A stretch of 36,549 nt of DNA from Rhizobiaceae bacterium (GTDB taxonomy: Bacteria; Pseudomonadota; Alphaproteobacteria; Rhizobiales; Rhizobiaceae): positions 1 to 36,549 of the forward strand of contig JAIXTO010000037.1 in assembly GCA_027483885.1 (NCBI GenBank), given 5' to 3'. The notes under the pieces were generated by a model that searched no databases, was not told the DNA's origin, and saw nothing but the letters and a program-made list of their open reading frames with translations. Within the stretch, counting starts at the first letter, position 1; each line of letters begins with the position of its first letter. This document shows, piece by piece, positions 16,019-30,021 of the stretch. Made by a program: the position numbers and the translations under genes.

Positions 16019-16667
16019 CGGCCTCTGCCTCCAGTTTCGCGACCGGCGCAGATGTGCCCGGCCGATATTTCTCGATGAAGGCGTCGATCGACAGCCCGCG
16101 GATGTCGGCGAGTGCGCGGCTGAGGGCATCGTGCGACCAATCCCACCAGGCGATCTCCAGAAGTGCAGGGGCCTGGGCCTCGCTGAAGCGTCGCTTGATG
16201 ACGCGTGCTGGAACGCCGCCGACGATCGTATAGGGTTCCACGTCCCTGGATACGACCGCACCAGCACCGACCACCGCGCCTGTTCCGATCGTCACGCCGG
16301 GCAGCACGGTCACGCCGTGACCGATCCACACATCGTGGCCGATGGTGACCCAGTGATCCTTGCGCCACTGAAAGAACGCCGCGTCATCATCGCCAAGGCC
16401 GTACTGGGCGGCTCGATAGGTGAAATGATGCTGGCTGGCGCGCCAGGTGGCGTGATTGCCCGGATTGATCCGCGCACCCTCAGCGATCGAGCAGAACTTG
16501 CCGATCGTCGACCAGACGACATTGCCGTTCTTGACGATATAGGAGTAGTCGCCGAACTTGCTCTCTCGCATGCTCACATGGGCCTGAATCTCGGTCCAGC
16601 GACCAATGTCGCAGTCGATCACGCTGGCTGTTTCATGGATGGTCGGCTGTTCACTCAACATCTTCAT
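16011..16667 (-). CDS. Left-handed beta-helix acyltransferase, phosphonate-metabolism type
   Basis: A 218-residue hexapeptide-repeat protein. Hexad repeats run from about residue 20 to 165 ([55 protein letters not shown]), the xenobiotic/chloramphenicol acetyltransferase-like fold. A family of this kind is regularly embedded in phn clusters (TIGR03308-like, from memory). It may acetylate an aminophosphonate or a sugar-phosphonate intermediate; the substrate is not established. ATG 16667 overlaps the phnE stop by 4 bases (ATGA), so it belongs to the phnCDEE operon. An upstream in-frame start at 16778 lies inside phnE and is rejected. Confidence 0.85.
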
Positions 16668-17527
16668 CGTGTCGTCCCCATGGTGCCGATGAAACGGGCG
16701 CGGATGGTGGCAGACAGAGCGTCGATCACATAGACCATTGCGATGATCAGCAGGATGATCGACCAGGCTTCGTCCCATCGATAGGCCCCGATCCGGTCAG
16801 ATAGAAGGAAGCCGATGCCGCCGGCACCGACGATGCCGAGAATGGTCCCAGAGCGCACGTTGGATTCGAAATTGTAGAGCGTGATCGACAGAAGCACCGG
16901 CATGACCTGGGGCATCATGGCAAAGCGGACCGCTTGGAGGCGCGAACCGCCTGAGGCGACGACCCCTTCCACCGGTTTGTTGGAAATGTTCTCGATGGCT
17001 TCCGCATAGAGCTTTGCCAGCACACCGACCTCGCTGACGGCAATGGCCATGACGCCGGCCAGAGGTCCAAGCCCGAAGGCGCGGATGAAGACCAGCGCCA
17101 GGATCAGTGTTTCGAAGGCGCGGATGATGTCGAACCCGCGGCGCACTCCAAACCGCAGCAGCGGCAGCCGGTTGATCGTCTTGGCGCCAAGGAAGGACAG
17201 CGGGAAGGCCAGGATTGCACCCAAAATGGTGCCGAGAAAAGCCATCGAGAGGGTCTCGCCGAGTCCTTCGAGGATTGCGTCGATCTCATCCCATTCGGTC
17301 CAGACATGCGGTGGAAACATGAACGAGAGGACACGTCCAAGCCGTCCAAACCCCGTGACGATGCGCTCCGGTGAGAAGCCGAAATCATAGAGGCACCATG
17401 CAAACAGCGCGGCAAATCCCCAAAGGAGTGCCAGTCGGCGTAGCCGGACGGAGAGCGGCTGGCGGAATGCCTGCGGCATCCGCTGACGCCAGTCGGCAAT
17501 TTCCGTCGGAGAGATCGTGGTCAGCAT
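16664..17527 (-). CDS. phnE: Phosphonate ABC transporter permease PhnE (second copy)
   Basis: A 287-residue inner-membrane permease with about six helices. The EAA-type loop that docks PhnC is present ([19 protein letters not shown]), followed by [16 protein letters not shown], standard for PhnE. It should pair with the PhnE encoded just upstream to form the channel. The start at 17527 has AGGAC upstream and lies 3 bases after the stop of the other permease gene. The product's end overlaps the acyltransferase start by 4 bases. Paired phnE genes are common in rhizobia. Confidence 0.92.
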
Positions 17528-17529
17528 CG

Positions 17530-18447
17530 TCAGGTCCTTTCCAGGCCGATGAGCCTGTGGCGCAGCTTTTCCGATCCCCAATCGATGATGAAGACCGAAA
17601 CCAGGATGATGATGAAGAGGGCAGAGAGATCGGTGTATTCCTGCAGGGAGACGGCCGTACGCAACTCCTGGCCGAGACCGCCGGCGCCGACATAACCGAT
17701 GACCGAAGAAGACCGGACGTTGATCTCGAAGCGCAGCAGCGTGTAGCTGATGATGTTCGGCAGCACCTGTGGCACGGCACCGTAGCGGATCTGGTCTGCC
17801 CAGCTTCCGCCGGAGGACTTGACGCCTTCCAGTGGCCGCATGTCGAGATTTTCATTGGCCTCGGAGTAGAGTTTACCCAGTGAACCGCAGGTGTGAAGCG
17901 CAATCGCCAGCACTCCGGCCATTGGCCCGACACCGAAACAGAAGACGAAGATCAAGGCAAAGACCAGTTCTGGGACGGTGCGCGCGATTTCGAGGCAGCG
18001 TCTGGTGATCGTCAGAACCCACCGGTTGGGCGACAGGTTGCGCGATGCCAGAAATGAGAGCACGAAACCACCTGCGACACCGAGCGCCGTTGCCATGAAG
18101 GCGATCAGAACCGTCTCCAGCAGCAGCGATGCCCAGATCTTCCAGCGCCAAAACCATGTGGCGATGTCTGAAGCCAAGGTGTCCCAGCCGAGTGACGGGA
18201 TGGTCTTGGCCAGATATTCGCCGAGACGTGGCAGGCCGGCGAGCAGGATCCAGCGTTCGGCGCGCGTCCCATCCGACAGTGTGACCTGCGCCACTTTGAA
18301 GAAATTGGAGAAATCGGCGGTCAGCAGGAAAAGTGCCAGAAGAACGATCACCACCAGCGCGCTCTGCATCCGGGCGCGATGGCGATGCGCTGCGAAGGCG
18401 CGCTCGAAATCGGCGATGGCGGTTGACGACGATATGGCGGCTGTCAT
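17530..18447 (-). CDS. phnE: Phosphonate ABC transporter permease PhnE (first copy)
   Basis: A 305-residue permease with an N-terminal membrane helix (about 28-46), a periplasmic segment and the transport domain: IARTVPELVFALIFV, the docking loop 'SEANENLDMRPLEGVKSSGG' and SVIGYVGAGGLGQELR. It forms the membrane channel with the second PhnE. It begins 63 bases after phnD, and a terminator-like hairpin (18474-18495) lies in that gap, so its expression is probably lower than that of the binding protein. Start ATG 18447. Confidence 0.92.
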   Translation of the reverse strand: MTAAISSSTAIADFERAFAAHRHRARMQSALVVIVLLALFLLTADFSNFFKVAQVTLSDGTRAERWILLAGLPRLGEYLAKTIPSLGWDTLASDIATWFWRWKIWASLLLETVLIAFMATALGVAGGFVLSFLASRNLSPNRWVLTITRRCLEIARTVPELVFALIFVFCFGVGPMAGVLAIALHTCGSLGKLYSEANENLDMRPLEGVKSSGGSWADQIRYGAVPQVLPNIISYTLLRFEINVRSSSVIGYVGAGGLGQELRTAVSLQEYTDLSALFIIILVSVFIIDWGSEKLRHRLIGLERT

Positions 18448-18461
18448 GGCTGCTCTGTCCC

Positions 18462-18495
18462 GGGAAAAGAAAAGGACAGGCCTTCAAGCCTGCCC
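18462..18495 (-). terminator. Terminator/attenuator between phnD and phnE
   Basis: On the minus strand GGGCAGGC pairs with GCCTGTCC (8 bp, one G-U) around a 6-base loop, followed by TTTTCTTTT. It lies 15-50 bases after the phnD stop. Such stems are common after the binding-protein gene of importer operons and allow partial read-through. Confidence 0.75.
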
Positions 18496-18510
18496 TTCGA
18501 TCTGGTCTGA

Positions 18511-19413
18511 TCAGCTCTTGCGCTGTGCCTTCAGCCAGGCACGCATGTCGACGATCCACTGGTATCGGTCATGATTGACATCGACATAGGCCTTGGCGGT
18601 GGAGCTATCTGCGCCGCTCATTTCCTTGAAGGCTGCCGGATCGGCTGTCGGCACGTTCTTCACGGCATCCTTCATAGCGCTAACCATTTCCGCCGGCAGG
18701 TTCTTGCGGGCGGTGAAGGGGCCGGACGTGATCTCGGGCGACTTCCAGATCCAGCAGACTTCGCCGGGCTTGATCATGCCCTTGGAGACCATGCGCTGGG
18801 GGATGCCGCTCTTTTCGTTGTTGATATAGGTGGCGGCAGCATCGAACTGGCCGTTGACCACGCCCTGCACGCCTGCCTCATGGCTGCCGGAGAAGGGGGT
18901 GGCGGAGAAATAGGTCGAAGGCTCGAAGCCCTGCTTGACCAGGTTGTAGTTCGGCACGGCATAACCGCTGGTCGAGTCCGGATCGGCGAAGGCGAGAACC
19001 TTGCCCTTCAGGTCTTCAATCTTCTTGTAGGGGCTATCGCAACGCACGGCGACGATCGAATAATAGCCGGTCGAACCGTCTTCCTGCTGTGAGGTCAAGA
19101 GCGGTTCGACGCCGCCCTTGGTCTCGGTATACGCGGCGGCATAGGCGGACGAACCGAGGAAGGCGAATTCGATCTGGTTTGCCGCAAGCGCCTGGATCAC
19201 GCCGTCATAGCTGCCGGCGGTGAAGATCTCGACATCGACGCCAAGCGTACGCTTCAGGTAGTCCTTGAACGGCTGGTAACGGGCGAGGCGGTCCTTTTCG
19301 TTCTCGGCCGAGGTGACGCCGAAGCGGACGACCTTGTAGTCGGTCTTCCAGTCGGCGGCGATCGCGGGAACGGATACGAGGGCGAGAAGCGCGGTGGCGG
19401 CAAGAAATCGCAT
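18511..19413 (-). CDS. phnD: Phosphonate-binding periplasmic protein PhnD
   Basis: A 300-residue solute-binding protein with a clear Sec signal peptide (MRFLAATALLALVSVPAIA, cleavage expected before ADWK). The mature part has the PhnD pattern: FGVTSAENEKDRLARYQPF, YDGVIQALAANQIEFAFLG, ADPDSTSGYAVPN and a conserved DAAATYIN. It captures phosphonates in the periplasm and delivers them to PhnE-PhnE. The start at 19413 is preferred because GGAG is six bases upstream; an ATG four codons earlier (19425) has a poor site. It lies 24 bases after phnC. Confidence 0.95.
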   Translation of the reverse strand: MRFLAATALLALVSVPAIAADWKTDYKVVRFGVTSAENEKDRLARYQPFKDYLKRTLGVDVEIFTAGSYDGVIQALAANQIEFAFLGSSAYAAAYTETKGGVEPLLTSQQEDGSTGYYSIVAVRCDSPYKKIEDLKGKVLAFADPDSTSGYAVPNYNLVKQGFEPSTYFSATPFSGSHEAGVQGVVNGQFDAAATYINNEKSGIPQRMVSKGMIKPGEVCWIWKSPEITSGPFTARKNLPAEMVSAMKDAVKNVPTADPAAFKEMSGADSSTAKAYVDVNHDRYQWIVDMRAWLKAQRKS

Positions 19414-19437
19414 GGGTTTCTCCATTGGGGGTAAGGG

Positions 19438-20244
19438 TCAGGCGTCAACCGCCGGGCGGATTGCCGTCGAGGTTACGGATTCGTTGAATTCGCCGAGATC
19501 GTCGCTGCCATAGATATCGCGGACGACCTCGCCGGTGAGTTGGTGGGCGCCGCCGTCGAAGATGACGCGACCGGCGCGCATGCCGATGATGCGGTCGCAA
19601 TAGGCCCGCGCCGTATCCAGCGTGTGCAGGTTGACGAGGACGGTGATGCCGTCCTCGTTGTTGATCGAACGCAGCGCGTCCATCACGCGGGTCGCATTGC
19701 CGGGATCGAGGCTGGCGATGGGCTCATCTGCCAGCAGGATGCGGGGGTTCTGCACCAGGGCGCGGGCAATGGCCACGCGCTGCTGCTGTCCGCCAGAGAG
19801 CGTGCCCGCCTTCTGGAGCGCCTGGGGTGCGAGGTCCAGGCGATCAAGTGCCCGGATCGCCAGTGCCCGTTCCGCATCGGTGAAATGCATGGCCATCGAG
19901 CTGGCGAAGCCATGTGCGGCAAGCCGGCCGACCAGCACATTGGTGAGTACGTCCAGACGGTCTATCAGGTTGAACTGCTGAAAGATCATCGCGCATTGGC
20001 GGCGCCATTCCCGCAAGGATTTCCCCTTGAGGGCGGTGATATCCTGGCCTCCGAAGGCGATGCGGCCATCTGTCGGTTCGATCAGCCGATTGATCAGTCG
20101 GAGGAGGGTGGACTTGCCCGCACCGGAGCGGCCGATGATCCCGACGAATTCGCCGGGACCGATGTCGAGGCTGACGCCGTCCACCGCGCGGGTGGAGCCA
20201 AAGCTGCGGCCAAGGCCGCTCAGGGTGAGATTGTGCTTTTCCAT
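19438..20244 (-). CDS. phnC: Phosphonate ABC transporter ATPase PhnC
   Basis: A 268-residue ABC ATPase. Walker [11 protein letters not shown]-loop [18 protein letters not shown], signature [15 protein letters not shown] and Walker [14 protein letters not shown] are all intact. '[18 protein letters not shown]' is typical of PhnC. It powers phosphonate import at the inner membrane. It is the first gene of phnC-D-E-E and is preceded by a TTCGAA-centred palindrome (20282-20293) 38 bases upstream that matches the phnF operator. Start ATG 20244. Confidence 0.95.
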
Positions 20245-20281
20245 GGGGCCAATGCTGGCCCTCGTCTGTGACAGCGCGATA

Positions 20282-20293
20282 TCATTCGAATGA
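20282..20293. promoter_or_regulatory. Putative PhnF operator upstream of phnC
   Basis: TCATTCGAATGA is a perfect 12-bp palindrome, 38 bases before the phnC start. The 16-base stretch around it matches most of the 20-bp palindrome upstream of phnF (26931-26950). Shared sites at both phn transcription units suggest control by PhnF. Confidence 0.7.
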
Positions 20294-20375
20294 ATTTATT
20301 CTTGCGGATTTGTGACGCCGACATAAGCCAAGGAGACAGTGGTCGGGCCAAGGGTTACAGTGCGCCAGACAGGCG

Positions 20376-20410
20376 CCACAAGAAGGGCCGGCAGCTTTCG
20401 CCGCCGGCCC
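20376..20410 (-). terminator. Terminator after phnM
   Basis: GGGCCGGC (20385-20392) and GCCGGCCC (20403-20410) form a perfect 8-bp stem, followed on the minus strand by TTCTTGT. It lies 24 bases after the phnM stop and separates phnG-M from phnC-D-E-E. Confidence 0.7.
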
Positions 20411-20433
20411 GAGCCTGGTCAGATGACGTGCGA

Positions 20434-21603
20434 TCAGGCCGCACGGGTGCGGGTAATCGATCCGTCGGAATAGATCTTGCCGCCACTGCGGATCGTCGCG
20501 CGCACATGGCCGATTCCGCTGTCGTCGGCGATGACGAAATCGGCCTGTTTGCCAAGCGCGATCTCTCCTCGATCCGACAGACCGAGTGCTTTTGCAGGGT
20601 TAAGCGTTGCAAGGCGGGTGGCACCGGCAAGACCGGCCGGATCGGCCTTTGCCAGTTCCAGGATCGCCGGCAGGATCGCAGACGGGTGATAGTCGGAAGC
20701 GAGGATATCCAGCACGCCCTCGGCATGCGCCTGCCGTGCAGAAAGGTTGCCGGAATAGGACTGCCCGCGCAACGCATTCGGTGCACCCATGGCTGTCGCG
20801 AGCCCTCTGGCGCGGGCTTCGCACGCGGCTTCCAGCGTCACCGGAAATTCGCTGATTGCGGCACCCAGATCCTGCATCAGCGCCACCTTTGCGGGCGTGT
20901 CATCGTCGTGGCTGGCAAGCGCCACGCCATGGGCACGGCAGGTTTCGGAGATCGCGCTCAAAGTTTGCGCCATGATTTCGGCGGGCTGGGTGCGCTCCTC
21001 GATACGCTTGGCGATCGACTGGGAGGCTTCCTCCCGGCTCAGACCCCGCTCGCGGACCATCTTTTCGACATGCCGTTCTATGTCGCGGTACTGGCCCTGT
21101 CCGGGTGTGTGGTCGGTCAGCGAGATCAGGTCTACCGCACCTTCGGCAATGAGTGCCTCGATAACGCTCAAGGCCTTCGGAAAGGTGATCTCGAAGCGGG
21201 CGTGGACCCGGTGATCGACAAGCAGTTGCGGCCCCATCGATTTCAGTGCGCGGATGATGGCGCTGGTGTGCTCGTAGCTGCGCAGATGGCCGTAGGTGGA
21301 GGAGGGGCTGAAGGAAACGGCCGCATAGGCGGTCGTGATGCCGGCCACCGCCAGCCGCCGATCGAGGTCGCGTAGGCCCAGTTCCAGGGGCATCGGCACA
21401 TTCGGCCGCGGCTCCACTTCGCGCTCCACCATGTCGCCGTGCATATCGACGAAACCGGGCAAAAGCAGAAGTCCATCGCCGAAGAGTTCGGCGCCGACCA
21501 CCGGCGTATCCGCAATCTCCGCTATTTTGCCGGCCTCGACCCGGATGGAGCCACGTTCGATGACGCGGTCTGCCAGTACGACGCGAAAATCAGATATCCA
21601 CAT
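20434..21603 (-). CDS. phnM: PhnM, ribosyl-phosphonate triphosphate diphosphatase
   Basis: A 389-residue amidohydrolase-fold enzyme. PhnM removes pyrophosphate from ribose 1-phosphonate 5-triphosphate after PhnG-H-I-L attach the phosphonate to ribose. Metal-site motif PGFVDMHGDMVEREVEPRP is near residue 50, DHTPGQGQYRD near 163, ASHDDDT near 220 and 'ILASDYHPSAILPAILELA' (D and H) near 308. The start overlaps the phnL end by 14 bases, so it is the last gene of the phnG-M operon; a terminator-like hairpin follows. Length and motifs are normal for the family. Confidence 0.93.
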   Translation of the reverse strand: MWISDFRVVLADRVIERGSIRVEAGKIAEIADTPVVGAELFGDGLLLLPGFVDMHGDMVEREVEPRPNVPMPLELGLRDLDRRLAVAGITTAYAAVSFSPSSTYGHLRSYEHTSAIIRALKSMGPQLLVDHRVHARFEITFPKALSVIEALIAEGAVDLISLTDHTPGQGQYRDIERHVEKMVRERGLSREEASQSIAKRIEERTQPAEIMAQTLSAISETCRAHGVALASHDDDTPAKVALMQDLGAAISEFPVTLEAACEARARGLATAMGAPNALRGQSYSGNLSARQAHAEGVLDILASDYHPSAILPAILELAKADPAGLAGATRLATLNPAKALGLSDRGEIALGKQADFVIADDSGIGHVRATIRSGGKIYSDGSITRTRAA

Positions 21604-22297
21604 GGCCGTCTATCTCCTCGGATTTCAGTTCAATGTCGCGGTCGACGAGGCCTGCCACGTCGCCGGGATGATGGAAGACGCCGATCATGGCGACGCCTTG
21701 TGCCTTCAGATCGGCAAGCCGGCGGACCAGTGCGGCGCGGGCATTGACGTCGAGCGAAGCCGTCGGCTCATCTAGCAGCAGCAGTCGTTGCGGCAGGATC
21801 AGTGCCCGGGCCAGATTGACCTTTTGCTGTTCACCGCCAGAAAATGTGGTGGGGTAGGCGCGCCAGAGGTCGCGCTTGACGCCGAACTCCTCAAGCCAGC
21901 GGCGCGCTTCGCTCAGCGCCTCTGGCTGTGCGATGCCTGCCTGACGGAGCGGTTCGGCGACGATCTCTTCTGCCGCGACGCGCGGACGGGCAATCAGGAA
22001 CTGCGTAACGAAACCAATCTCTCGGCGTCGTAGTAGGGCAATATCGACATCGGCGGCGCGGGCAAGATCGATCCGCCCCTCTGCCGTGTGATACCAGACA
22101 TGGCCGGACCGTGGCAGGTAGCTGCGATAGAGCGTGCGCAGAAGTGTCGATTTGCCGACGCCGTTTGCTCCCTTCAAGAGCAGGAATTCCCCCGCATGTA
22201 GCGTGAAGCCGATGCCGGAGAACGCGTGAAGGCGCTGGTCCAGATGGTGCATGTGAAACGTCTTGGCGAGACCCTCGACGTGGAGAACCGGTTGCAT
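21590..22297 (-). CDS. phnL: PhnL, ABC-type ATPase subunit of the C-P lyase system
   Basis: A 235-residue ABC-family ATPase. Walker A GANGVGKST, signature FSGGEQQKVNLARAL, Walker B RLLLLDEPTASLDV and a switch His in FHHPGD are intact. PhnL acts with PhnG-H-I in forming ribose 1-phosphonate 5-triphosphate, not in transport. The start at 22297 has GAGGTGGTG upstream; an earlier ATG (22342) lies inside phnK and is less likely. It begins 7 bases after the phnK stop. Confidence 0.93.
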   Translation of the reverse strand: MQPVLHVEGLAKTFHMHHLDQRLHAFSGIGFTLHAGEFLLLKGANGVGKSTLLRTLYRSYLPRSGHVWYHTAEGRIDLARAADVDIALLRRREIGFVTQFLIARPRVAAEEIVAEPLRQAGIAQPEALSEARRWLEEFGVKRDLWRAYPTTFSGGEQQKVNLARALILPQRLLLLDEPTASLDVNARAALVRRLADLKAQGVAMIGVFHHPGDVAGLVDRDIELKSEEIDGHVDI

Positions 22298-22304
22298 CAC
22301 CACC

Positions 22305-23132
22305 TCACAGTTTCGCGTGTACGAGTTGCTGGGTATAGGCATGCTGCGGATCCTGGAAGATCTGGTCGACTAGCCCTTCCTCCACCACGCTACCGCGTCG
22401 CATGACCATAACCCGGTCCGCCATCGTTCGTATGACGCCAAGGTCGTGGCTGACGATCACCATGGTGATCGCCCGGTCGCGCTGCAGCCGTTTCAGGGTA
22501 TCGAGCACCAGCGCCTGGACGCTGACGTCAAGCCCGGTCGTCGGCTCGTCGAGCAGCAGCAGCGCCGGTTCGAGCGCAATGGCCTTGGCAAGCTGCACGC
22601 GCTGCTGCATGCCGCCCGAAAGTTCGACGGGCCGGGCATCCATACGGGCAAGCGGGAATTCTGAGGCGTCGAGCGCGTCGCGCGCCCTTGCCCTCAGCGC
22701 CTCGAAACTGCGCTCGCCGGCGATCAGCAGCCGTTCCGCCACATTGCCGGAACTGCTATGGTTCATCAGCAAGCCGAGATGCGGGTTCTGGTAGACAATG
22801 CCGATCTGGCGGGCGCAGAGCATACGGCGCTCGAGACGATCAAGGTGAAAGAGGTTGCCGCCGAGCCCGGGCAGATCTAGCCTGTAGTCGCCCTCATCCG
22901 GGATATCTTCCAGGTTCATCATCCTGAGCAGCGTGGATTTGCCGGAGCCGCTTTCGCCGACGATGCCGAGAACCTCGCCCGGATAGACCTTGGCCGATAC
23001 ATCCTGAAGCGCAGTGACATCGCCGTAGCGTTTGCTGATGGCGGTCATCGTCAGGAGCGGCGGCGTGGTCATCAATTGTGGCGGCAGTTGCTGCAGGGCC
23101 GCCGCCCGGATGTGTAGTTCCTGAAGCGTCAT
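22305..23132 (-). CDS. phnK: PhnK, ABC-type ATPase of the C-P lyase complex
   Basis: Up to 275 residues. Walker A GESGSGKST, signature LSGGMQQRVQLAKAI, Walker B ALLLLDEPTTGLDV and switch VSHDLGV are intact, and YQNPHLGLLMNHSSSGNVAERL is a PhnK hallmark. PhnK binds the PhnGHIJ core through PhnJ and couples ATP hydrolysis to complex turnover. The ATG at 23132 overlaps the phnJ stop by 4 bases like the other phn junctions; an internal ATG at 23072 gives the more usual family length (255 residues) but has no good ribosome site. Confidence 0.93.
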   Translation of the reverse strand: MTLQELHIRAAALQQLPPQLMTTPPLLTMTAISKRYGDVTALQDVSAKVYPGEVLGIVGESGSGKSTLLRMMNLEDIPDEGDYRLDLPGLGGNLFHLDRLERRMLCARQIGIVYQNPHLGLLMNHSSSGNVAERLLIAGERSFEALRARARDALDASEFPLARMDARPVELSGGMQQRVQLAKAIALEPALLLLDEPTTGLDVSVQALVLDTLKRLQRDRAITMVIVSHDLGVIRTMADRVMVMRRGSVVEEGLVDQIFQDPQHAYTQQLVHAKL

Positions 23133-24043
23133 TGGGTGAATGTCCCGTTCTTGTACCAGGTGTCGCCGATGGCAACGGTTTCGCCTTCGTTGCGGCGGAT
23201 CGCCTTGACGCCGAACTGGCTGTCGGAGAGTTCGTGCGCCGACGTCCCGTCGTCCTTCGGGATCTCGTTCATGAAGTAGCCTTTCACACCGGAGCGGTCG
23301 CAGGTGAGGCTGGCGTGGTCCTCCACCTTGTAAGGCACGTCGGAGAAGACAAGCGGTTCCACGCGGGTAAACGGTGGCACGGCAAACAGCCGCTTCTCAC
23401 GACCGGCGGAGAGGAAGGTGAGGTGCCGCGCCATGTGGAGCTTTGGTACGTCCCAGCGGGGGATCGGTGATGGTGTCATCACATGCCGGCCATTGACCAG
23501 CGCCGGATAGGCGGCGCCCTGCATGATGCGACCGGAGCGCACGATCTGTTCATAGAGGGTCAGCCACAGCCGGCTGTAATCGGCATCTGCATGCATTTCG
23601 CGTGCCGCCGACATGTTGGGCTCCACGGGGCGCAACGGTTCCGGGTTTGGAACCTGCAGCACCAGGATCTGGTCGTCCCGCAGTTTTTCCTCCGGAATAC
23701 GGTGACGGCTCTGTAGAATGGAGGCTTCCAGCGTATCCATCGTCTCGGCGGCGCCGGAGACGCGGGCGATAAAGCGACGGATCGAGGCGGCATTGACGCC
23801 GTCATCGGCGCCCTGATCAATGACCTTGATCGACGACGACGGCTTGATCAGTGTCAGCGTTACCTGCAATCCGCCGGTTCCCCAGCCTCGGGCGATGGGT
23901 ACTTCGCGGCTGGCATAGGGCATTTGGCAGCCGGGAACCGCAATCGCCTTCAGCATCTTGCGACGCATTTCGCGTTTGGCGGACGCGTCGAGGAAGCCGT
24001 AGCTGAAGGCTTCCCATGGCCTGGTGAGGTTTGAAAGACTCAT
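23129..24043 (-). CDS. phnJ: PhnJ-like C-P lyase subunit lacking most Fe-S cysteines
   Basis: A 304-residue PhnJ homologue: RPWEAFSYGFLDASAKREMR, AIAVPGCQMPYASREVPIARG, GWGTGGLQVTLT, VIDQGADD and RHRIPEE are PhnJ signatures, and the C-terminal AGREKRLFAVPPFTRVEPL aligns with the segment just before the cluster site. Known PhnJ is a radical-SAM C-P lyase with four Cys (C241, C244, C266, C272 in E. coli). Here the same positions read C248, S251, L272 and G278, and the protein has only two Cys in total. The reading frame is clean and fits between phnI and phnK with 4-base overlaps, so this is not a simple frameshift. It cannot bind the cluster in the usual way; function may be changed or lost. 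Confidence 0.9.
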   Translation of the reverse strand: MSLSNLTRPWEAFSYGFLDASAKREMRRKMLKAIAVPGCQMPYASREVPIARGWGTGGLQVTLTLIKPSSSIKVIDQGADDGVNAASIRRFIARVSGAAETMDTLEASILQSRHRIPEEKLRDDQILVLQVPNPEPLRPVEPNMSAAREMHADADYSRLWLTLYEQIVRSGRIMQGAAYPALVNGRHVMTPSPIPRWDVPKLHMARHLTFLSAGREKRLFAVPPFTRVEPLVFSDVPYKVEDHASLTCDRSGVKGYFMNEIPKDDGTSAHELSDSQFGVKAIRRNEGETVAIGDTWYKNGTFTQ

Positions 24044-25125
24044 GCCGGCTCCTCCTGGCGCTGGATGGTTGAGGATGTGGCATGCGCAGCCGTCCCGGCT
24101 TTGGCGTCGCGCAGCGCATCCAGCGAGGACTGGAAGGTGACGTAATGCGGCAGCTTGAAGTGGATGCAGAAGCCCGAGGCCTCTACCGGCTCTGTGTGGT
24201 AGAGGAAGAACTCCTCGTTTACCGGCGAGTTTTTTGGCGCGGCCGGCGCGTTAAGATCCAGCGTTGCACCGGCAATAACCTTGACCTCGTTCCAACCGAG
24301 CGTCGCGCAGAAGCCGAGTTCGAGCTTGCCTGACTTCCCCTTGTTGGTGACCTCAGCTTGGGAAACTTTCACGCGCCCGGCAGAGAACACCGTGCCGCGC
24401 GGGTGGCGTACCCTTAGCTCTGCCTCGGCGAGGCGCAGTTCATTGACGGTCGGATGGGCATTGCCGTAACCGCGCATGGCCGAATAACCGAGCGCCAACA
24501 CCCCGCCTGTATCGGCCCTTGCCAGGCTCTGCAGCGTATGCGCCCGCTTGGCGGGGAAAAGCAGCGGTTCCCGGGTCAGGTCCGGAATGTCTTCCGGGGC
24601 TACGGGCGTGGCGGAAACATCGGCAACCAGTCCGACGGCCTTCTGCCAGGCCGCAAGAGACGGCTGATGGGCCGGCGCGGGACGGGCGGCGGGTTCCACC
24701 GGCATTGGAACAAACGGCTGCCCCTCCAGCACGCTGGTTGCCAGCAGGCGGTGGGAATAATCAAGCGTTGGGCCTAGGATCTGACCGCCCGGAATGTCCT
24801 TGAAGGCGGCAGAGATCCGCCGCACGGTAAACAGGCTCTCCTGCGTGACCGGCTCTGCGATCGCAAGCCGCGGCTGGGTGGTGCGCCAGGCACGCAGCAA
24901 AAGAACCGTCTCGTACAGATCGCCGCCGGACTGTGCCAGCGCAAGCGCGGCCAGATCCGGCTCATAGAGCGAGGCTTCGCCCATCACCCGGTCGATCAGC
25001 CAGGGCAGCGCCTGGCGGATGGCCGCCACACGCTGTGCATCGATGTCGCCGAGACCGGCACGATAAAGCCTCTCGGACTGTTCTATGGCGCGCTCACCGC
25101 CACGGGTCGCCACATAGGCCATCAC
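24040..25125 (-). CDS. phnI: PhnI, C-P lyase core subunit
   Basis: A 361-residue PhnI. The N-terminus MMAYVATRGGERAIEQSERL and the C-terminal EEFFLYHTEPVEASGFCIHF and LPHYVTFQSSLDALR are typical of the family. PhnI is a nucleosidase that, with PhnG, PhnH and PhnL, attaches phosphonates to ribose-triphosphate using ATP. It overlaps phnH and phnJ by 4 bases each (ATGA), giving coupled translation and a fixed subunit ratio. No truncation is visible. Confidence 0.95.
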   Translation of the reverse strand: MMAYVATRGGERAIEQSERLYRAGLGDIDAQRVAAIRQALPWLIDRVMGEASLYEPDLAALALAQSGGDLYETVLLLRAWRTTQPRLAIAEPVTQESLFTVRRISAAFKDIPGGQILGPTLDYSHRLLATSVLEGQPFVPMPVEPAARPAPAHQPSLAAWQKAVGLVADVSATPVAPEDIPDLTREPLLFPAKRAHTLQSLARADTGGVLALGYSAMRGYGNAHPTVNELRLAEAELRVRHPRGTVFSAGRVKVSQAEVTNKGKSGKLELGFCATLGWNEVKVIAGATLDLNAPAAPKNSPVNEEFFLYHTEPVEASGFCIHFKLPHYVTFQSSLDALRDAKAGTAAHATSSTIQRQEEPA

Positions 25126-25694
25126 AGCACCTCAATCGTTGCGGATCGCGGCAGGCCGAGCACTCTGTCGCCGTCGATCAAGAAGAGTTCGAAGCCAATC
25201 GGATATTCGCAGCGGGCACTCCGGATCGCCCAGACTTCGTCCGGGATGCCGCCGATCCAGATCTCCACGGCGCCTTCGATGCCGGGGCCTGACAGCCGGA
25301 GACCCCGACCGCTTCCGATATCGGCTGGAGCGAAAACGGTTGCCCCTTCATCCGGATAGAGATGCGAACCGGTCGGCACGTCGCGCAGTGCAGCGAGACC
25401 GTCTGGCGTATCGAGCGCGAGGAAGGCGTGATCTGCCTCAGCCGCGGGCGTGAGATAGGCGCCGGTTGCGGCAATCCTTTCGGAGAGACTGGCATCACAG
25501 GCGAAGACCCGGCATTCCCGATCGACAAGGGTTTCTGCAAGCGCGAAAGGATCGCTACCCGGCAACGACCGGATCTCGCCAGGCCGCGCGAGCGCCCACA
25601 TCAGGGCTTCATAGGTGGCGTTTGCGCGTGCCTCGGACAGATTTCGAACTGGCACGACTAGATCAGGGTGCGTTTTGGGACTTTGGATCGTCAT
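25122..25694 (-). CDS. phnH: PhnH, C-P lyase core subunit
   Basis: A 190-residue PhnH. The family pattern ATYEALMWALARPGEIRSLPG near residue 30 (split here: ATYEALMWALARPGE, then IRSLPG), DTPDGLAALRDVPTGSHLYPDEG and a C-terminal GFELFLIDGDRVLGLPRS are present. PhnH is a structural and catalytic partner of PhnG, PhnI and PhnL. ATG 25694 shares one base with the phnG stop (TGATG), and its end overlaps phnI by 4 bases. Confidence 0.94.
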   Translation of the reverse strand: MTIQSPKTHPDLVVPVRNLSEARANATYEALMWALARPGEIRSLPGSDPFALAETLVDRECRVFACDASLSERIAATGAYLTPAAEADHAFLALDTPDGLAALRDVPTGSHLYPDEGATVFAPADIGSGRGLRLSGPGIEGAVEIWIGGIPDEVWAIRSARCEYPIGFELFLIDGDRVLGLPRSATIEVL

Positions 25695-26155
25695 CAGAAC
25701 GTTTCCATCTCGACGCGTGTCGCTTCAACTGCGCGCAGGCGCTGTTCGTCAGCCGTCAAAATGCGCGTAGCTTGCGCCTCGACGAAGTGCGCGAGACGCT
25801 CTTTGTCCGCTCCCGCCATCGCTGCGGCGTCGATCACGGCCATAGCCATGGCGCGCTCAAGATCGCGGCCGATGACCATGCCGTAGCCTTCGGTCTCCCC
25901 GCCTTTGACCCGGATATGGGCTTCCGCGACAAGCACCTCACCCAGATGAAAATCGGTGCCGGCAACGGTGTCGCGCATGGGGAGCATGACAAGCCCGGTG
26001 CGGCTTTGAACCACCTCGATCTCGCCAAGCAGGGGGAGCACGTCCTCTGCGAAGGTCTTCAGCGCGCCATCATCGGCACGCGCCAGAGTGTCGAGAAGAT
26101 GGGCATGGCAAGGCATTCCGGAGTTGGCGACGCCGGTCATTTCATCAATCATCAT
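25694..26155 (-). CDS. phnG: PhnG, C-P lyase core subunit
   Basis: A 153-residue PhnG. 'LPLLGEIEVVQSRTGLVMLPMRDTVAG' region (EVVQSRTGLVMLPMRD) and FHLGEVLVAEAHIRV followed by GYGMVIGRDLERAMAMAVID are characteristic. PhnG forms the base of the PhnGHIJ core. Two adjacent ATGs (26155 and 26152) follow AAAGGA; the second has the better spacing. It starts 21 bases after phnF, so phnF and phnG are probably cotranscribed. Confidence 0.94.
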   Translation of the reverse strand: MMIDEMTGVANSGMPCHAHLLDTLARADDGALKTFAEDVLPLLGEIEVVQSRTGLVMLPMRDTVAGTDFHLGEVLVAEAHIRVKGGETEGYGMVIGRDLERAMAMAVIDAAAMAGADKERLAHFVEAQATRILTADEQRLRAVEATRVEMETF

Positions 26156-26176
26156 TATTCCTTTCGCGGACCGAAC

Positions 26177-26920
26177 CTAGTCGCGGGAGGACGGGGAGGG
26201 GTCTGGGTCGTCGAGGGTATCAAAACTGAACTGCACGCGGTCTCCGGCCCAGATCGCTTCCGAGTAACCGATCGCACGGCCGTCGGCGGTTACGTCCGTC
26301 TTGGTCAGCACAATGACGGGATGATCGACATGCTGGCTGAGCAGTCTTGCCTCATCGGGTTCCGGCCGCCTTGTGAAGATGGTCGTGCGCTTGCGGAAAT
26401 AGTCCGTAATCCCGTGATCGCGATAGATTTCAGTTACGGAGGTGCCCGCAGCGCGTCGGGCGCCGAGGTCGGCGAAAAGTGCCGCTTCGTGAAAGGCCAT
26501 TCCCAGACTGATCGGCACTCCGTCCGCAAAGCCGCGGCGCAGGATGCGGTGGACGAGCGTATCCTCGGCAAGACCAAGCGCCTGAGCCACCCTTGCCGGT
26601 GCCGGTATGATCTCGGCCGAAAGATGTTCGCCTGCGGGCGCAATACCCTGTTCCAGAAGGTTCTGGCGAAAGCGGGTGCGCCGGCCGATGTTATAGATGA
26701 TGAGCGGCGCTGCTTCGACGAAGGTCCCACGCCCCTGCTCGACCCGGAGCTTGCCCTCCACCGCGAGAGAGGCAACCGCCCGCCGCACCGAATGCCGGCC
26801 AGCACCAAATGCCACGCAGAGCTCCGGTTCTGTCGGCAGGCGCGCGCCAGGAGCAAGCTTGCCCGAGGCGATGTCGCCGGCCAAGCGGTCTCGAATGATC
26901 TGCCAACTGTCTCTTTGCAT
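26177..26920 (-). CDS. phnF: PhnF, GntR-family (HutC/UTRA) repressor of phn genes
   Basis: A 247-residue regulator. The N-terminal winged helix (about 5-72; IASGKLAPGARLPTEPELC, then GRHSVRRAVASL) binds DNA, and the C-terminal UTRA domain (about 90-235; VHRILRRGFADGVPI, ITDYFRKRTTIF) binds a ligand. PhnF represses phn genes until a phosphonate or phosphate-starvation signal is sensed. ATG 26920 is chosen because the upstream in-frame extension would run through a 20-bp palindrome (26931-26950), the likely operator. Autoregulation is therefore probable. Confidence 0.93.
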   Translation of the reverse strand: MQRDSWQIIRDRLAGDIASGKLAPGARLPTEPELCVAFGAGRHSVRRAVASLAVEGKLRVEQGRGTFVEAAPLIIYNIGRRTRFRQNLLEQGIAPAGEHLSAEIIPAPARVAQALGLAEDTLVHRILRRGFADGVPISLGMAFHEAALFADLGARRAAGTSVTEIYRDHGITDYFRKRTTIFTRRPEPDEARLLSQHVDHPVIVLTKTDVTADGRAIGYSEAIWAGDRVQFSFDTLDDPDPSPSSRD

Positions 26921-26930
26921 GCACGTCGTC

Positions 26931-26950
26931 CGATTCATTCGAATGAATCG
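26931..26950. promoter_or_regulatory. Putative PhnF operator upstream of phnF
   Basis: CGATTCATTCGAATGAATCG is a perfect 20-bp palindrome 11 bases before the phnF start. Its core recurs upstream of phnC (20282-20293). Size and symmetry suit a dimeric GntR-family repressor. Confidence 0.75.
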
Positions 26951-26966
26951 TATGTAGCGCATGCGT

Positions 26967-26984
26967 ATGACGTGGCGATGACGC
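26967..26984 (-). promoter_or_regulatory. Pho-box-like repeat upstream of phnF
   Basis: Minus strand reads GCGTCATCGCCACGTCAT: two xxGTCAT half-sites 11 bases apart, matching 5 of 7 positions in each half of the CTGTCAT-N4-CTGTCAT Pho box. It lies just upstream of the PhnF palindrome, where PhoB could activate and PhnF repress. Visual match only. Confidence 0.5.
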
Positions 26985-27016
26985 TTGTTGCTTTCCGCGC
27001 GGAACTGAGCCGGTGG

Positions 27017-27343
27017 GGGTGCGGACGAAAACTCGGACCACCAGGAGGCAGGCTGGCTAACCCGGATCAGCGAAGCGAAGCTGGTTCGCTCGATGTCCCG
27101 AAAGGGTTGCTCGCAAGACAACGCCGCTTGCGAAGGCTTCTTCGGCCGGTTGAAAACCGAACTCTTCTATCCCCGAGACTGTAAGGCCATGACAATCGAA
27201 CAGTTCTTCGGCGAGGTGGATGCCTATATCCGCTGGTACAATGAGAAGCGCATCAAGATATCGCTGGGATCGCTCAGCCCGGTCGAATATCGTAAAAGCC
27301 TCGGCCTGATCTTATGAAACAGTCCAACGTTTTATCCGCACCC
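27017..27343 (+). mobile_element. Internally deleted IS3-family element
   Basis: The ends 27017-27038 and 27322-27343 are 22-base imperfect inverted repeats; both begin GGGTGCGGA reading inward and end GGAC. Between them only the 3' end of an IS3-type orfB remains. The element is about 327 bases, so most of both transposase frames has been lost. A full-length copy elsewhere could still mobilise it. No clear target duplication was seen. Confidence 0.7.
27069..27317 (+). pseudogene. IS3-family transposase orfB, C-terminal fragment
   Basis: The frame reads SEAKLVRSMSRKGCSQDNAA, then CEGFFGRLKTELFY and 'YIRWYNEKRIKISLGSLSPV', the C-terminal end of the DDE (rve) integrase core of IS3-family transposases. 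The catalytic Glu region (CEGFFGRLK) is present, but the DD part is missing. It lies between the two inverted repeats of the deleted element and cannot be active. Confidence 0.85.
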
Positions 27344-27456: not shown

Positions 27457-27750
27457 TTAAACAACGACTTGGGAGGAAATCTTTCGGCGCCCGTGCAGCA
27501 CGCGGATGATTTCGACTGCGCCGCCAGTGAGCCGATAAAGAGTTAGATACTCGCCTGAGACCAGATGCCGAATACCCGGTGCAATGTCGTCGCGCGCCAC
27601 TCCCGAGTACGGGTGTCGTGCGAGATGCTGCCAGCGCGCCTCAAGCGCATCGAGAACTCGATCAGCTGCGACTATGTTTTCAACGGCAATGTAGGACCAT
27701 ATTTCGATCAGGTCCTCATCGGCACGATCCGTGCGGACAATAGAAAGCAT
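27457..27750 (-). CDS. parE: ParE-type toxin (second module)
   Basis: A 97-residue toxin of the ParE/RelE superfamily: ADEDLIEIWSYIAVEN, LARHPYSGVARDDIAPGIRH and a final VEIIRVLHGRRK are classic. It differs clearly from the toxin at 11294, so it is an independent acquisition. It starts 2 bases after the antitoxin stop. The 113-base stretch before it (27344-27456) shows no gene. Confidence 0.88.
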   Translation of the reverse strand: MLSIVRTDRADEDLIEIWSYIAVENIVAADRVLDALEARWQHLARHPYSGVARDDIAPGIRHLVSGEYLTLYRLTGGAVEIIRVLHGRRKISSQVVV

Positions 27751-27752
27751 AG

Positions 27753-28031
27753 TTAGCTTTCGCGTCGTGAAGATTCAATGCGATGGCGCGCGGCAGCTTT
27801 TACCTCTGCCATCGTCGAACGCGAACTCGGACCGCTGTCGATGCCCTCCTGAACAAGGGTTCGCAGATCCTCGACTGTATAACCAAGCAAATCCCGTCTT
27901 TCCTTCCACTCACGCACGGCGTCGCGGATGGCTTCGCTAGTCGACGCATATTCGCCAGCATCGACCGCGCTTCGCACAAATCCCGCCATCTCAGGTGTCA
28001 GTGCAATGGTAATCTTCTCAACCGTCGTCAT
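27753..28031 (-). CDS. parD: ParD-type antitoxin (second module)
   Basis: A 92-residue ribbon-helix-helix antitoxin with VEKITIALTPEMAGFVRSAV and GEYASTSEAIRDAVREW. It neutralises the toxin encoded next to it and probably represses the shared promoter. Order and near-overlap are standard for the family. Confidence 0.9.
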   Translation of the reverse strand: MTTVEKITIALTPEMAGFVRSAVDAGEYASTSEAIRDAVREWKERRDLLGYTVEDLRTLVQEGIDSGPSSRSTMAEVKAAARHRIESSRRES

Positions 28032-28373: not shown

Positions 28374-28626
28374 TTGAAGGTCGTCGCTCATCGGGCGGTC
28401 AAAAGCCAGCCGCCATTGGGCCGCGTGCAGAATTCTCACGCACGCTTCTATTGACAATCGCTGAGTTTGCTGGCTTTTCTCGCAAAGGTTCCGAGTACCT
28501 GCCGCCTGCAGACGCAAGTCACGGTAAAGCCCGGCATAAGATGATTTTTTCTCACCCTCGAAGCATTTCGTCGGTGGCAATGCAGGCCCCCATCACAGTC
28601 GAAATGCCTCTTTGGAGGAGTGAGTG

Positions 28627-30021
28627 ATGTCTTTGCGACAATCGCCCGAAAACCGTTTTCTGACTGCCTCGCCAGGTAGAATTTTTGTTTCCACAGCACT
28701 GCCTATGATCGCCATCATGGTGATGAACGGGATGCTTGGTATTATCGACGCCGTCTTTCTGGGACATTTCGTTGGTGCGGACGCTATGGCGGCCGTCGGC
28801 ATGGCGCTTCCAGTCCTGATGTTGACGATCGCGCTTTCGACCCTTGTCAGCGGTGGAATGTCCAGCCTGCTGGCTCGCCAGCTCGGCGCCGACGACCGTA
28901 ACGCGGCCAACGCGACCTTCGCCGGCGCGCATGGACTTGCGTTGACGATCGCTTCAATGCTGATCGTGATCTTCTGTGCGGGCGGGTGGGGCTTCGCCCT
29001 GCGCATTGCGGGCTCCGATGGTGCGGTTGCCGAAATGGTGTGGATCTTCCTGGCTATAACCGTATTCGGAACCCCGGTACAATTTGTGCTGGGTATTCAT
29101 GCCGATGCCTGGAGGAACGAAGGACGGGCCGGATTGATGGCGCTGATGTCACTTGGGGTCACGCTTATCAACATTCTGCTGAACTACATCCTGGTGGTGA
29201 TGCTCGAACTCGGTGTTGCGGGTTCGGCCACGGGCACGGTTCTGGCGCAGGCGCTGGGACTGGTCCTTCTGGCCGGACTGCGCCCGTTCCTTGGTGGCAT
29301 GATGCCGCTCAACAGTCTCTGGCGGAACCGCTGGACGGGCAGTTGGAGGCGTATTGTTGCGCTGGGTGCGCCCGTCAGTCTGGGTTTTATCGGAATGGCG
29401 CTTTCGGCCGCCAGCGTAGTTCTCGCCCTACGTTTTGCAGGCAGCACCGATTACGCCAGGACCATTGCCGCCTACGGGATCGTGACACGCATTTTCGGTT
29501 TTGCCTTCCTGCCAATCATGGCGATCGCGATGGCGATGCAGAGCATAGTCGGCAACAATGTCGGTGCGCGTCTTTACGCCCGCTCGGATGCGGTCCTTCG
29601 GCTCGCCGCAGCAAGCGCATTGCTTTACTGTCTTACAGTCGAGGTTTTGTTGCTGAGTCAAGGCACAGTCGTCGGAGCAGCCTTTGTCGCTGATCCGGAT
29701 GTGATCGGCGAGGTCGGCCGATTGCTTCGCCCCATGGGAGCGGTCTATCTCTTTTCCGGACCGGTTCTTGTGCTCGGGCTTTATTTCCAAGCCATCGGCC
29801 AACCGGCCCGCGCGGCTCTTCTGACCATGGTCAAGCCGCTTATCCTGTTGCCTGTCTTGGTCACGATCGCTGCGGCAATGTTGGGCGCGGATGCGATTTG
29901 GCTCGCCTATCCGTTGGCCGATGGCGTGGCTGCAGTCATCGCAACTCTTGTGCTTGCCGTCGCCCTGAAGGCGCGGGGAACCGCTGGTATCGGGCTCAAG
30001 GCCCTGGGGAGCATGCCATGA
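28627..30021 (+). CDS. MATE-family multidrug exporter
   Basis: A ~464-residue inner-membrane protein with 12 helices. The N-terminal LPMIAIMVMNGMLGIIDAVF and FVGADAMAAVGMALP, then 'GTPVQFVLGIHADAWRNEGR' region, match MATE cation antiporters. It should export cationic drugs or metabolites using Na+ or H+. ATG 28627 follows GGAGGAG at ideal spacing; a GTG one codon earlier is possible. Its stop overlaps the next gene's start (ATGA), so the two are coupled. Confidence 0.88.
   Translation: MSLRQSPENRFLTASPGRIFVSTALPMIAIMVMNGMLGIIDAVFLGHFVGADAMAAVGMALPVLMLTIALSTLVSGGMSSLLARQLGADDRNAANATFAGAHGLALTIASMLIVIFCAGGWGFALRIAGSDGAVAEMVWIFLAITVFGTPVQFVLGIHADAWRNEGRAGLMALMSLGVTLINILLNYILVVMLELGVAGSATGTVLAQALGLVLLAGLRPFLGGMMPLNSLWRNRWTGSWRRIVALGAPVSLGFIGMALSAASVVLALRFAGSTDYARTIAAYGIVTRIFGFAFLPIMAIAMAMQSIVGNNVGARLYARSDAVLRLAAASALLYCLTVEVLLLSQGTVVGAAFVADPDVIGEVGRLLRPMGAVYLFSGPVLVLGLYFQAIGQPARAALLTMVKPLILLPVLVTIAAAMLGADAIWLAYPLADGVAAVIATLVLAVALKARGTAGIGLKALGSMP

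Follow-up and report, generated by a model that had tools for sequence, protein, structure and literature searches.

Can a C-P lyase be complete, and be kept by selection, when its PhnJ subunit lacks most of the cysteines on which catalysis is thought to depend? The accepted mechanism of Escherichia coli PhnJ, as set out in reviews, needs both a cluster and a cysteine radical. The question arises from a phnJ gene (304 aa, minus strand, 23129..24043) in a stretch of 36,549 nucleotides from a Rhizobiaceae bacterium, here called the window. An earlier note, made from the sequence alone, had reported that the cluster and radical cysteines are largely replaced in its product. It had offered three explanations: a divergent C-P lyase chemistry, a structural-only PhnJ working with another catalytic protein, or a recently inactivated enzyme.

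The product is a full-length member of the PhnJ family. It matches Pfam PF06007 over profile positions 2-271 of 275 with 383.3 bits (E=6.5e-115), above the gathering score of 25 across the full domain, and matches E. coli PhnJ (4xb6_D) with E=7.5e-78. Five PhnJ proteins compared with NCBIfam were all without a match at 1e-3; E. coli PhnJ was among them, so the silence of NCBIfam on the window PhnJ is uninformative. The alignment agrees with the residues first reported: E. coli Cys241, Cys244, Cys266 and Cys272 correspond to C248 (codon at 23300-23302), S251 (23291-23293), L272 (23228-23230) and G278 (23210-23212), all on the minus strand and placed by arithmetic from the ORF start. The sole further cysteine is C39, in the motif VPGCQMPY, as also reported. 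Of the three ligands expected in the radical-SAM [4Fe-4S] enzyme (EC 4.7.1.1), Cys241, Cys244 and Cys266, the window PhnJ keeps Cys241 alone, and a glycine stands in place of the radical cysteine. The glycyl radical site Gly32 is present as Gly38. The lost ligands belong to the C-terminal domain, which begins at about E. coli residue 235 by alignment columns (23132..23323, minus strand). A compensating frameshift hiding the CxxC motif, a possibility the earlier note had allowed for, is not there: the C-terminal region runs in a single frame to the stop and aligns with other Cys-poor rows. The AlphaFold model of the protein was poor (pLDDT 42.2, pTM 0.47, from 26 close rows).

The gene lies in a complete phn operon on the minus strand (16664-27121), in the order phnF, G, H, I, J, K, L, M and then phnC, D, E, E, and the other subunits of the C-P lyase core complex (PhnG, H, I, K, L and M) are encoded in the same operon as PhnJ. 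The operon begins with phnF, a GntR/UTRA regulator (26177..27121 as the listed ORF; PF07702, and TIGR02325 above cut-off); its match starts at residue 72, and translation therefore probably begins further inside that ORF. It is followed by phnG (25694..26155; PF06754), phnH (25122..25694; PF05845) and phnI (24040..25125; PF05861, 346 bits), which overlaps phnJ by 4 bases. Two core-complex ABC ATPases come next, phnK (22305..23132) and phnL (21590..22342); their best NCBIfam matches fall under the cut-offs (TIGR02323, 223.5 bits against 302.85, and TIGR02324, 233.5 bits against 256.3). The triphosphate diphosphatase gene phnM (20434..21603) has NF011988 and TIGR02318 above cut-off. The importer comprises the ATPase gene phnC (19438..20244; PF00005 and the phnC profile), the phosphonate-binding protein gene phnD (18511..19425; PF12974, and TIGR03431 above cut-off) and two permease genes, phnE (17530..18447) and a second phnE (16664..17581), both with PF00528 and the phnE profile. 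All of these genes are on the minus strand. A ParDE-type toxin-antitoxin pair (27457-28031; PF05016, PF03693) lies upstream of the operon, and a MATE-family exporter (28624-30021; PF01554) is encoded on the plus strand. Judged by these comparisons, the predicted protein is a PhnJ-family member in a C-P lyase complex, but it lacks the cysteine set that defines a radical-SAM [4Fe-4S] enzyme.

The same cysteine state recurs widely. PhnJ sequences were gathered from 200 relatives, of which 10 carry a Cys-poor copy, from 398 genomes of the phylum (four carriers), from plasmids, and from a scan of named genomes from which the best 80 of 181 relatives were taken. The alignment has 171 rows, among them E. 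coli and some repeats: 67 carry all four cysteines (CCCC), 102 read C-[ST]-[VLIA]-[GMA] and two are fragments. No half-way form was present among the 171, and Cys241 is kept in 102 of 102 Cys-poor rows. Because the named-genome scan used the C-terminal region of this very clade as its query, the share of 102 in 171 cannot be read as a frequency; the peptide patterns of the scan excluded the cysteine positions. The Cys-poor rows hold two repeats (L043 is from the L146 genome and L048 from the L154 genome), and the CCCC rows include two duplications, of the canonical gene of the window's genome (L001, L003) and of the E. coli gene. Two copies of the window gene (L002, L056) were omitted from the alignment and the operon survey, and the fragments (L054, L055) were set aside. 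In the two same-genus genomes with these fragments (G050 and G042, respectively), the sole PhnJ found is split into two adjacent pieces with the surrounding phn genes present.

Carriers of the Cys-poor type are, judged by record titles, mostly Rhizobiales and Rhodobacterales, and the type also occurs on Thermus thermophilus plasmids (C-T-V-M and C-T-I-M). Among the best 80 of 181 relatives in the named-genome scan, 79 are apparently alphaproteobacterial and one is given as Proteobacteria. An even sample of the family of Pacificibacter marinus contained it in 18 of 296 genomes, and a scan of viral contigs found no relatives of the Cys-poor PhnJ.

The earlier note had suggested checking for a conserved clade of Cys-less PhnJ with its own phn operons, and the alignment and two trees show one. 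In a PhnJ tree built without the C-terminal columns (42 of the 102 Cys-poor and 35 of the 67 canonical rows), the Cys-poor rows fall on one side of one branch with an SH-aLRT of 95, by a quick method whose program warned that long branches meet there. The Thermus PhnJ is placed beside the remaining Cys-poor rows. A tree of PhnI alone (24 Cys-poor and 23 canonical rows) gives the same split with a support of 99. Among Cys-poor loci of at least 6 kb, phnG to phnM are present in all but L158 and L168, where the contig ends, and phnC-D-E come after phnG-M in most. In the Haematobacter massiliensis plasmid pOT1-5, an IS66-type element is inserted between phnM and phnC of the Cys-poor operon (L035:12791-15052), and integrases and toxin-antitoxin genes lie upstream of it, which marks the setting as mobile.

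Selection on these genes could be gauged from dN/dS, a check the note had proposed. In 12 of 13 pairs (L035/L095 was left out) the ratio was low: residues 1-234 gave 0-0.19, and the C-terminal domain, the faster-evolving part of PhnJ in 11 of the 12, gave 0.04-0.24. The window phnJ itself bears no mark of a pseudogene, whether relaxed selection or a broken frame. The idea of a recent inactivation thus lacks support, since the state is clade-wide, spanning Alphaproteobacteria and Thermus plasmids, the C-terminal domain has a dN/dS of 0.04-0.24 and new invariant residues have become fixed. Gene decay or a sequence error, in whose favour the missing cysteines speak and nothing further, is contradicted by 102 rows alike, low dN/dS, intact operons and a frame open to the stop, and can be practically discounted. 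In this comparison, the Cys-poor PhnJ is one clade under purifying selection in a conserved operon.

What the clade has retained is concentrated at another site. In E. coli, PhnI His328 and His333 bind a zinc (His219 in the open state) at which the ligand PRcP is located, and PhnJ contacts this ligand through Arg107, His108, Gln124 and loop 47-50 (PMC9947105). PhnJ Gly32, loop 47-50, Arg107, His108 and Gln124 are kept in 101 of 102 Cys-poor rows, the remaining row being cut by a contig end. In PhnI, H328 and H333 are each present in 101 of 101 members and H219 in 100 (with one gap). The whole set of zinc-site residues (PhnI H219, H328 and H333; PhnJ R107, H108 and Q124) is therefore found in both the window and the clade, and the PhnK ATPase residues Gln90, Asp170, Glu171 and His204 are kept wherever the alignment has a residue.

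Other positions have changed in concert. Six C-terminal residues of PhnJ (Glu235, Arg243, Asn252, Pro255, Glu265 and Lys274) are invariant in the clade and unlike the usual canonical ones, and residue 259 is deleted. PhnI Cys253, present in 95% of canonical rows, has given way to Ala in 92% of the clade, and no member has Cys there. At a threshold of at least 90%, and with L053 left out, PhnI shows 19 and PhnJ 18 fixed differences, among them PhnI D336T, three residues past the zinc ligand H333. Such differences would fit a complex that acts on another kind of bond or substrate and cleaves no C-P bond. However, the operon keeps phnCDE and phnM, the window PhnD scores above the NCBIfam cut-off for phosphonate binding, and phnN is linked to the clade's operon in the five genomes described below, which makes this very improbable.

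A further possibility concerns the lost site itself. The authors of the cryo-EM structures call the C-P lyase mechanism an unresolved conundrum, partly because the cluster site lies ~30 Å from Gly32 in E. coli PhnJ and Gly32 is 31 Å from the zinc in the open state (PMC9947105). The four-Cys site could be a mere structural metal knuckle in all PhnJ proteins, lost here much as zinc ribbons lose ligands, in which case the accepted radical-SAM mechanism would be wrong or incomplete for all C-P lyases. Besides the distance, which a review deems too great while pointing out that zinc replaces the cluster in the structure (PMC7916636), the charged residues fixed around the lost site would suit this explanation. 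Against it stand the published E. coli chemistry with SAM, as cited in reviews, and the lack of any canonical row with a single loss, a strict pattern if the site were merely structural (the 67 CCCC rows being so by definition). We regard it as unlikely.

The radical or the cluster could instead come from elsewhere, with an unlinked protein activating Gly32, or with cysteines of several subunits holding a cluster, so that the chemistry would still be radical. Gly32, the reported radical site, is present in every row that covers the position, and cysteines are common in alphaproteobacterial Cys-poor members: PhnH C60 in 93%, PhnM C219 in 82% and PhnK C81 in 75%. Two more lie close to the sites discussed above. 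PhnI Cys326, two residues before the zinc ligand His328, occurs in 98% of Cys-poor rows and 3% of canonical ones, and PhnJ Cys33, adjoining Gly32, in 82% and 0% (the canonical cysteine comparison had 11 rows for PhnG and seven for PhnM). However, a Thermus member (L034) has neither of these two nor PhnH C60; across PhnG, H, I, J, K, L and M, PhnJ Cys241 is the only common cysteine that it also carries, so there is no multi-subunit cysteine set clade-wide. In addition, no radical-SAM or Fe-S protein appears among the annotated product names of six Cys-poor loci. That several subunits jointly bind a cluster through their cysteines is therefore unlikely, with some room left in the alphaproteobacterial members, whose common cysteines could serve a cluster or thiol of another kind; a radical or cluster from elsewhere is, taken as a whole, quite unlikely.

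The window phnJ is not the sole phnJ of its cell. A whole-genome search found a second PhnJ with four cysteines on contig 99 (C99:2972-3787, 496 bits), where it belongs to a separate phnFGHIJKL cluster; phnM, DUF1045 and phnN of this canonical system lie on contig 137. PhnFGHIJKL and phnM are common to the two systems, and the two PhnM proteins share only ~36% identity. The genome has a second DUF1045 gene (C60:9117-9797, L173), which scores 230 bits, under the TIGR03223 cut-off of 248.95, and no other phn gene was seen within the 10 kb around it.

Most carriers examined show this pairing. Canonical-like PhnJ (at least 467 bits) is also present in 39 of 40 named Cys-poor genomes, which were chosen from the best 80 of 181 relatives, the majority being isolates and not metagenome bins. 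The family sample shows a canonical PhnJ in 16 of 18 carriers, against a PhnJ in 136 of 278 non-carriers (Fisher p=0.001). The association between the two types is real, and canonical PhnJ in most carriers would fit a dependence on the canonical enzyme, which counts against the explanation favoured below.

Strict dependence in every genome is nevertheless contradicted by five solitary genomes (G082, G124, G603 Paenochrobactrum gallinarii, G687 and G865), in which no other PhnJ and no other full-length PhnI was found, the single full-length PhnI being that of the Cys-poor operon. G082 and G124 are 99% complete, and G687 and G865 come from genomes at least 95% complete. All five encode PhnN and a DUF1045 protein, the latter under cut-off in two. 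Moreover, phnN lies within ~9 kb of the Cys-poor phnJ in five of five solitary loci but in one of 48 non-solitary loci, which represent 46 distinct genomes with two repeats (Fisher p=2e-6). The five arise separately on the best tree, but the independent contrasts with support number only three, which does not suffice for a phylogenetic sign test of the link with phnN. In G082, phnC-D-E, DUF1045, phnM and phnN adjoin the Cys-poor GHIJKL genes, and PhnM is of the canonical kind, with 50-52% identity to canonical-type alphaproteobacterial PhnM and 34-36% to Cys-poor PhnM. The substrate of PhnN, ribose bisphosphate, arises after C-P cleavage (PMC10574752). The simplest reading is that the Cys-poor GHIJKL set has replaced the canonical one in G082 and would make the same product.

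These genomes bear directly on a division of labour between the two systems. Here, the Cys-poor complex would load certain phosphonates onto ribose (through PhnI, G, H and L, then PhnM), with its PhnJ acting as a scaffold for PhnK and PhnL, and the canonical PhnJ of the same cell would cleave the C-P bond. The high rate of co-occurrence, in the named carriers and the family sample alike, and the lack of a visible phnN in 47 of 48 non-solitary loci are in line with such a scheme. It leaves unexplained the five genomes without a canonical PhnJ or PhnI, in which phnN, acting after cleavage, is nonetheless part of the Cys-poor locus, and we consider it doubtful. Of the three explanations in the earlier note, a structural-only PhnJ assisted by another catalyst is therefore possible where a canonical PhnJ is present (39 of 40) and fails for the five solitary genomes. 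Divergent chemistry fits best, given the retained zinc-site residues and the five genomes whose sole PhnJ and PhnI are of this type and linked to phnN.

Comparison with known systems places the window operon close to, but distinct from, characterised ones. E. coli PhnGHIJKLM (PhnJ structures 4xb6 and 7z15-7z19) has the same subunits in the same G-H-I-J-K-L-M order, and its PhnJ is alignable with that of the window over ~255 residues at ~46% identity. The two share Gly32, the pocket residues of PhnJ and the zinc histidines of PhnI. The window differs in lacking Cys244, Cys266 and Cys272, in having the new invariant C-terminal residues and in an operon without phnN and phnP. The PhnJ of T. thermophilus HB8 (plasmid pVV8, NC_017767.1) belongs to the Cys-poor clade, with C-T-V-M and 61% identity over the match. 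Its phn cluster is unlike that of the window, with the importer first, other flanks, no PhnI C326 and no PhnJ C33; the search covered the pVV8 plasmid record, and a growth study of this plasmid (Ohtani 2012) is cited in PMC5529391.

Nearest to the clade in the tree are PhnJ proteins from haloarchaea (L037, L087, L088) and Gammaproteobacteria (L061, L062, L089), which, unlike the clade, all keep four cysteines. The gammaproteobacterial three have a pocket loop GFGT instead of GWGT and a longer stretch before Cys241. A genome of the window's genus (G017:C15) contains a second, very divergent PhnGHIJKL module (L053:7098-11487), adjoining a BtuC/FecCD-type importer (L053:3702-6636); no PhnM was found in this locus. 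Its PhnJ keeps four cysteines and has His108 replaced by Gln and Thr50 by Val, the mirror image of the window PhnJ.

Taken together, the window gene may well encode the PhnJ of a complete C-P lyase system, the second in its genome and one maintained by selection, that works without a PhnJ-borne cluster, a reading to which we assign a probability of roughly one in two. Besides the frequent presence of a canonical PhnJ, the accepted E. coli mechanism and the faster evolution of the C-terminal domain count against it. A PhnJ without the full ligand set or the radical cysteine is, by these data, a selected part of a full phosphonate pathway. Cleavage would probably take place at the zinc site formed by PhnI and PhnJ and would need no [4Fe-4S] cluster in PhnJ, though the chemistry of this step is inferred.

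C-P lyase activity proper is the cleavage of alpha-D-ribose 1-phosphonate 5-phosphate, which yields PRcP together with an alkane or other carbon product. In the scheme we propose, three of the four C-terminal cysteines binding the [4Fe-4S] cluster (or zinc) would have disappeared from the PhnJ of one ancestor, new polar and charged residues would have become fixed around the hole, and PhnI would have changed alongside. PhnG, H, I and L would join the phosphonate to an ATP-derived ribose, and PhnM would then trim the ribose-coupled phosphonate. PhnI and PhnJ would release 5-phosphoribosyl 1,2-cyclic phosphate and the carbon part at a site formed by the zinc-binding histidines of PhnI and by Arg107, His108 and Gln124 of PhnJ, with neither a PhnJ-borne Fe-S cluster nor Cys272. 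One possible route is an attack of the ribose 2'-OH on phosphorus with departure of a stabilised carbanion, which would restrict the enzyme to activated phosphonates. PhnN and an enzyme that opens the cyclic phosphate would complete the pathway; these finishing enzymes would come from the canonical operon in most genomes and from genes linked to the Cys-poor operon in the solitary ones. More tentatively, the enzyme may be a cluster-free, probably oxygen-tolerant and iron-sparing zinc C-P lyase of PhnI and PhnJ, working outside radical-SAM chemistry and yielding PRcP through 2'-OH attack. This version, possible rather than probable, includes an enzyme common to rhizobia and Roseobacters that reached Thermus plasmids by old descent or transfer.

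PhnJ and C-P lyase are well known, and the Cys-poor clade as a putative cluster-less form appears, as far as we found, to be new: no description of it was found in searches of open-licence PMC papers. Some Rhodobacteraceae may have several C-P lyase copies (PMC6852614), and the available text of that source makes no mention of a cysteine difference between them. The clade provides a natural control for the mechanistic conundrum, since it has given up the radical cysteine and, of the three cluster ligands, all but Cys241, yet retains the known zinc-site residues, and it offers a way to test whether the C-P step depends on the cluster. Should the four-Cys site prove to be merely structural, the accepted mechanism would be overturned.

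There are also potential consequences for environmental surveys. Gene surveys take phnJ to mark the release of methane from methylphosphonate, and the need of phnJ for iron has been discussed (PMC6852614), and the Cys-poor form is carried by Marivita (L094, L097, L098, L111 and L121), a genus used in work of the methylphosphonate and methane type (PMC8774927). If the Cys-poor PhnJ cannot cleave methylphosphonate, marker counts based on phnJ would be inflated; if it can, it would do so without the iron of the cluster. Many bacteria carry a second complete C-P lyase gene set with a Cys-poor PhnJ, one that may work without a cluster.
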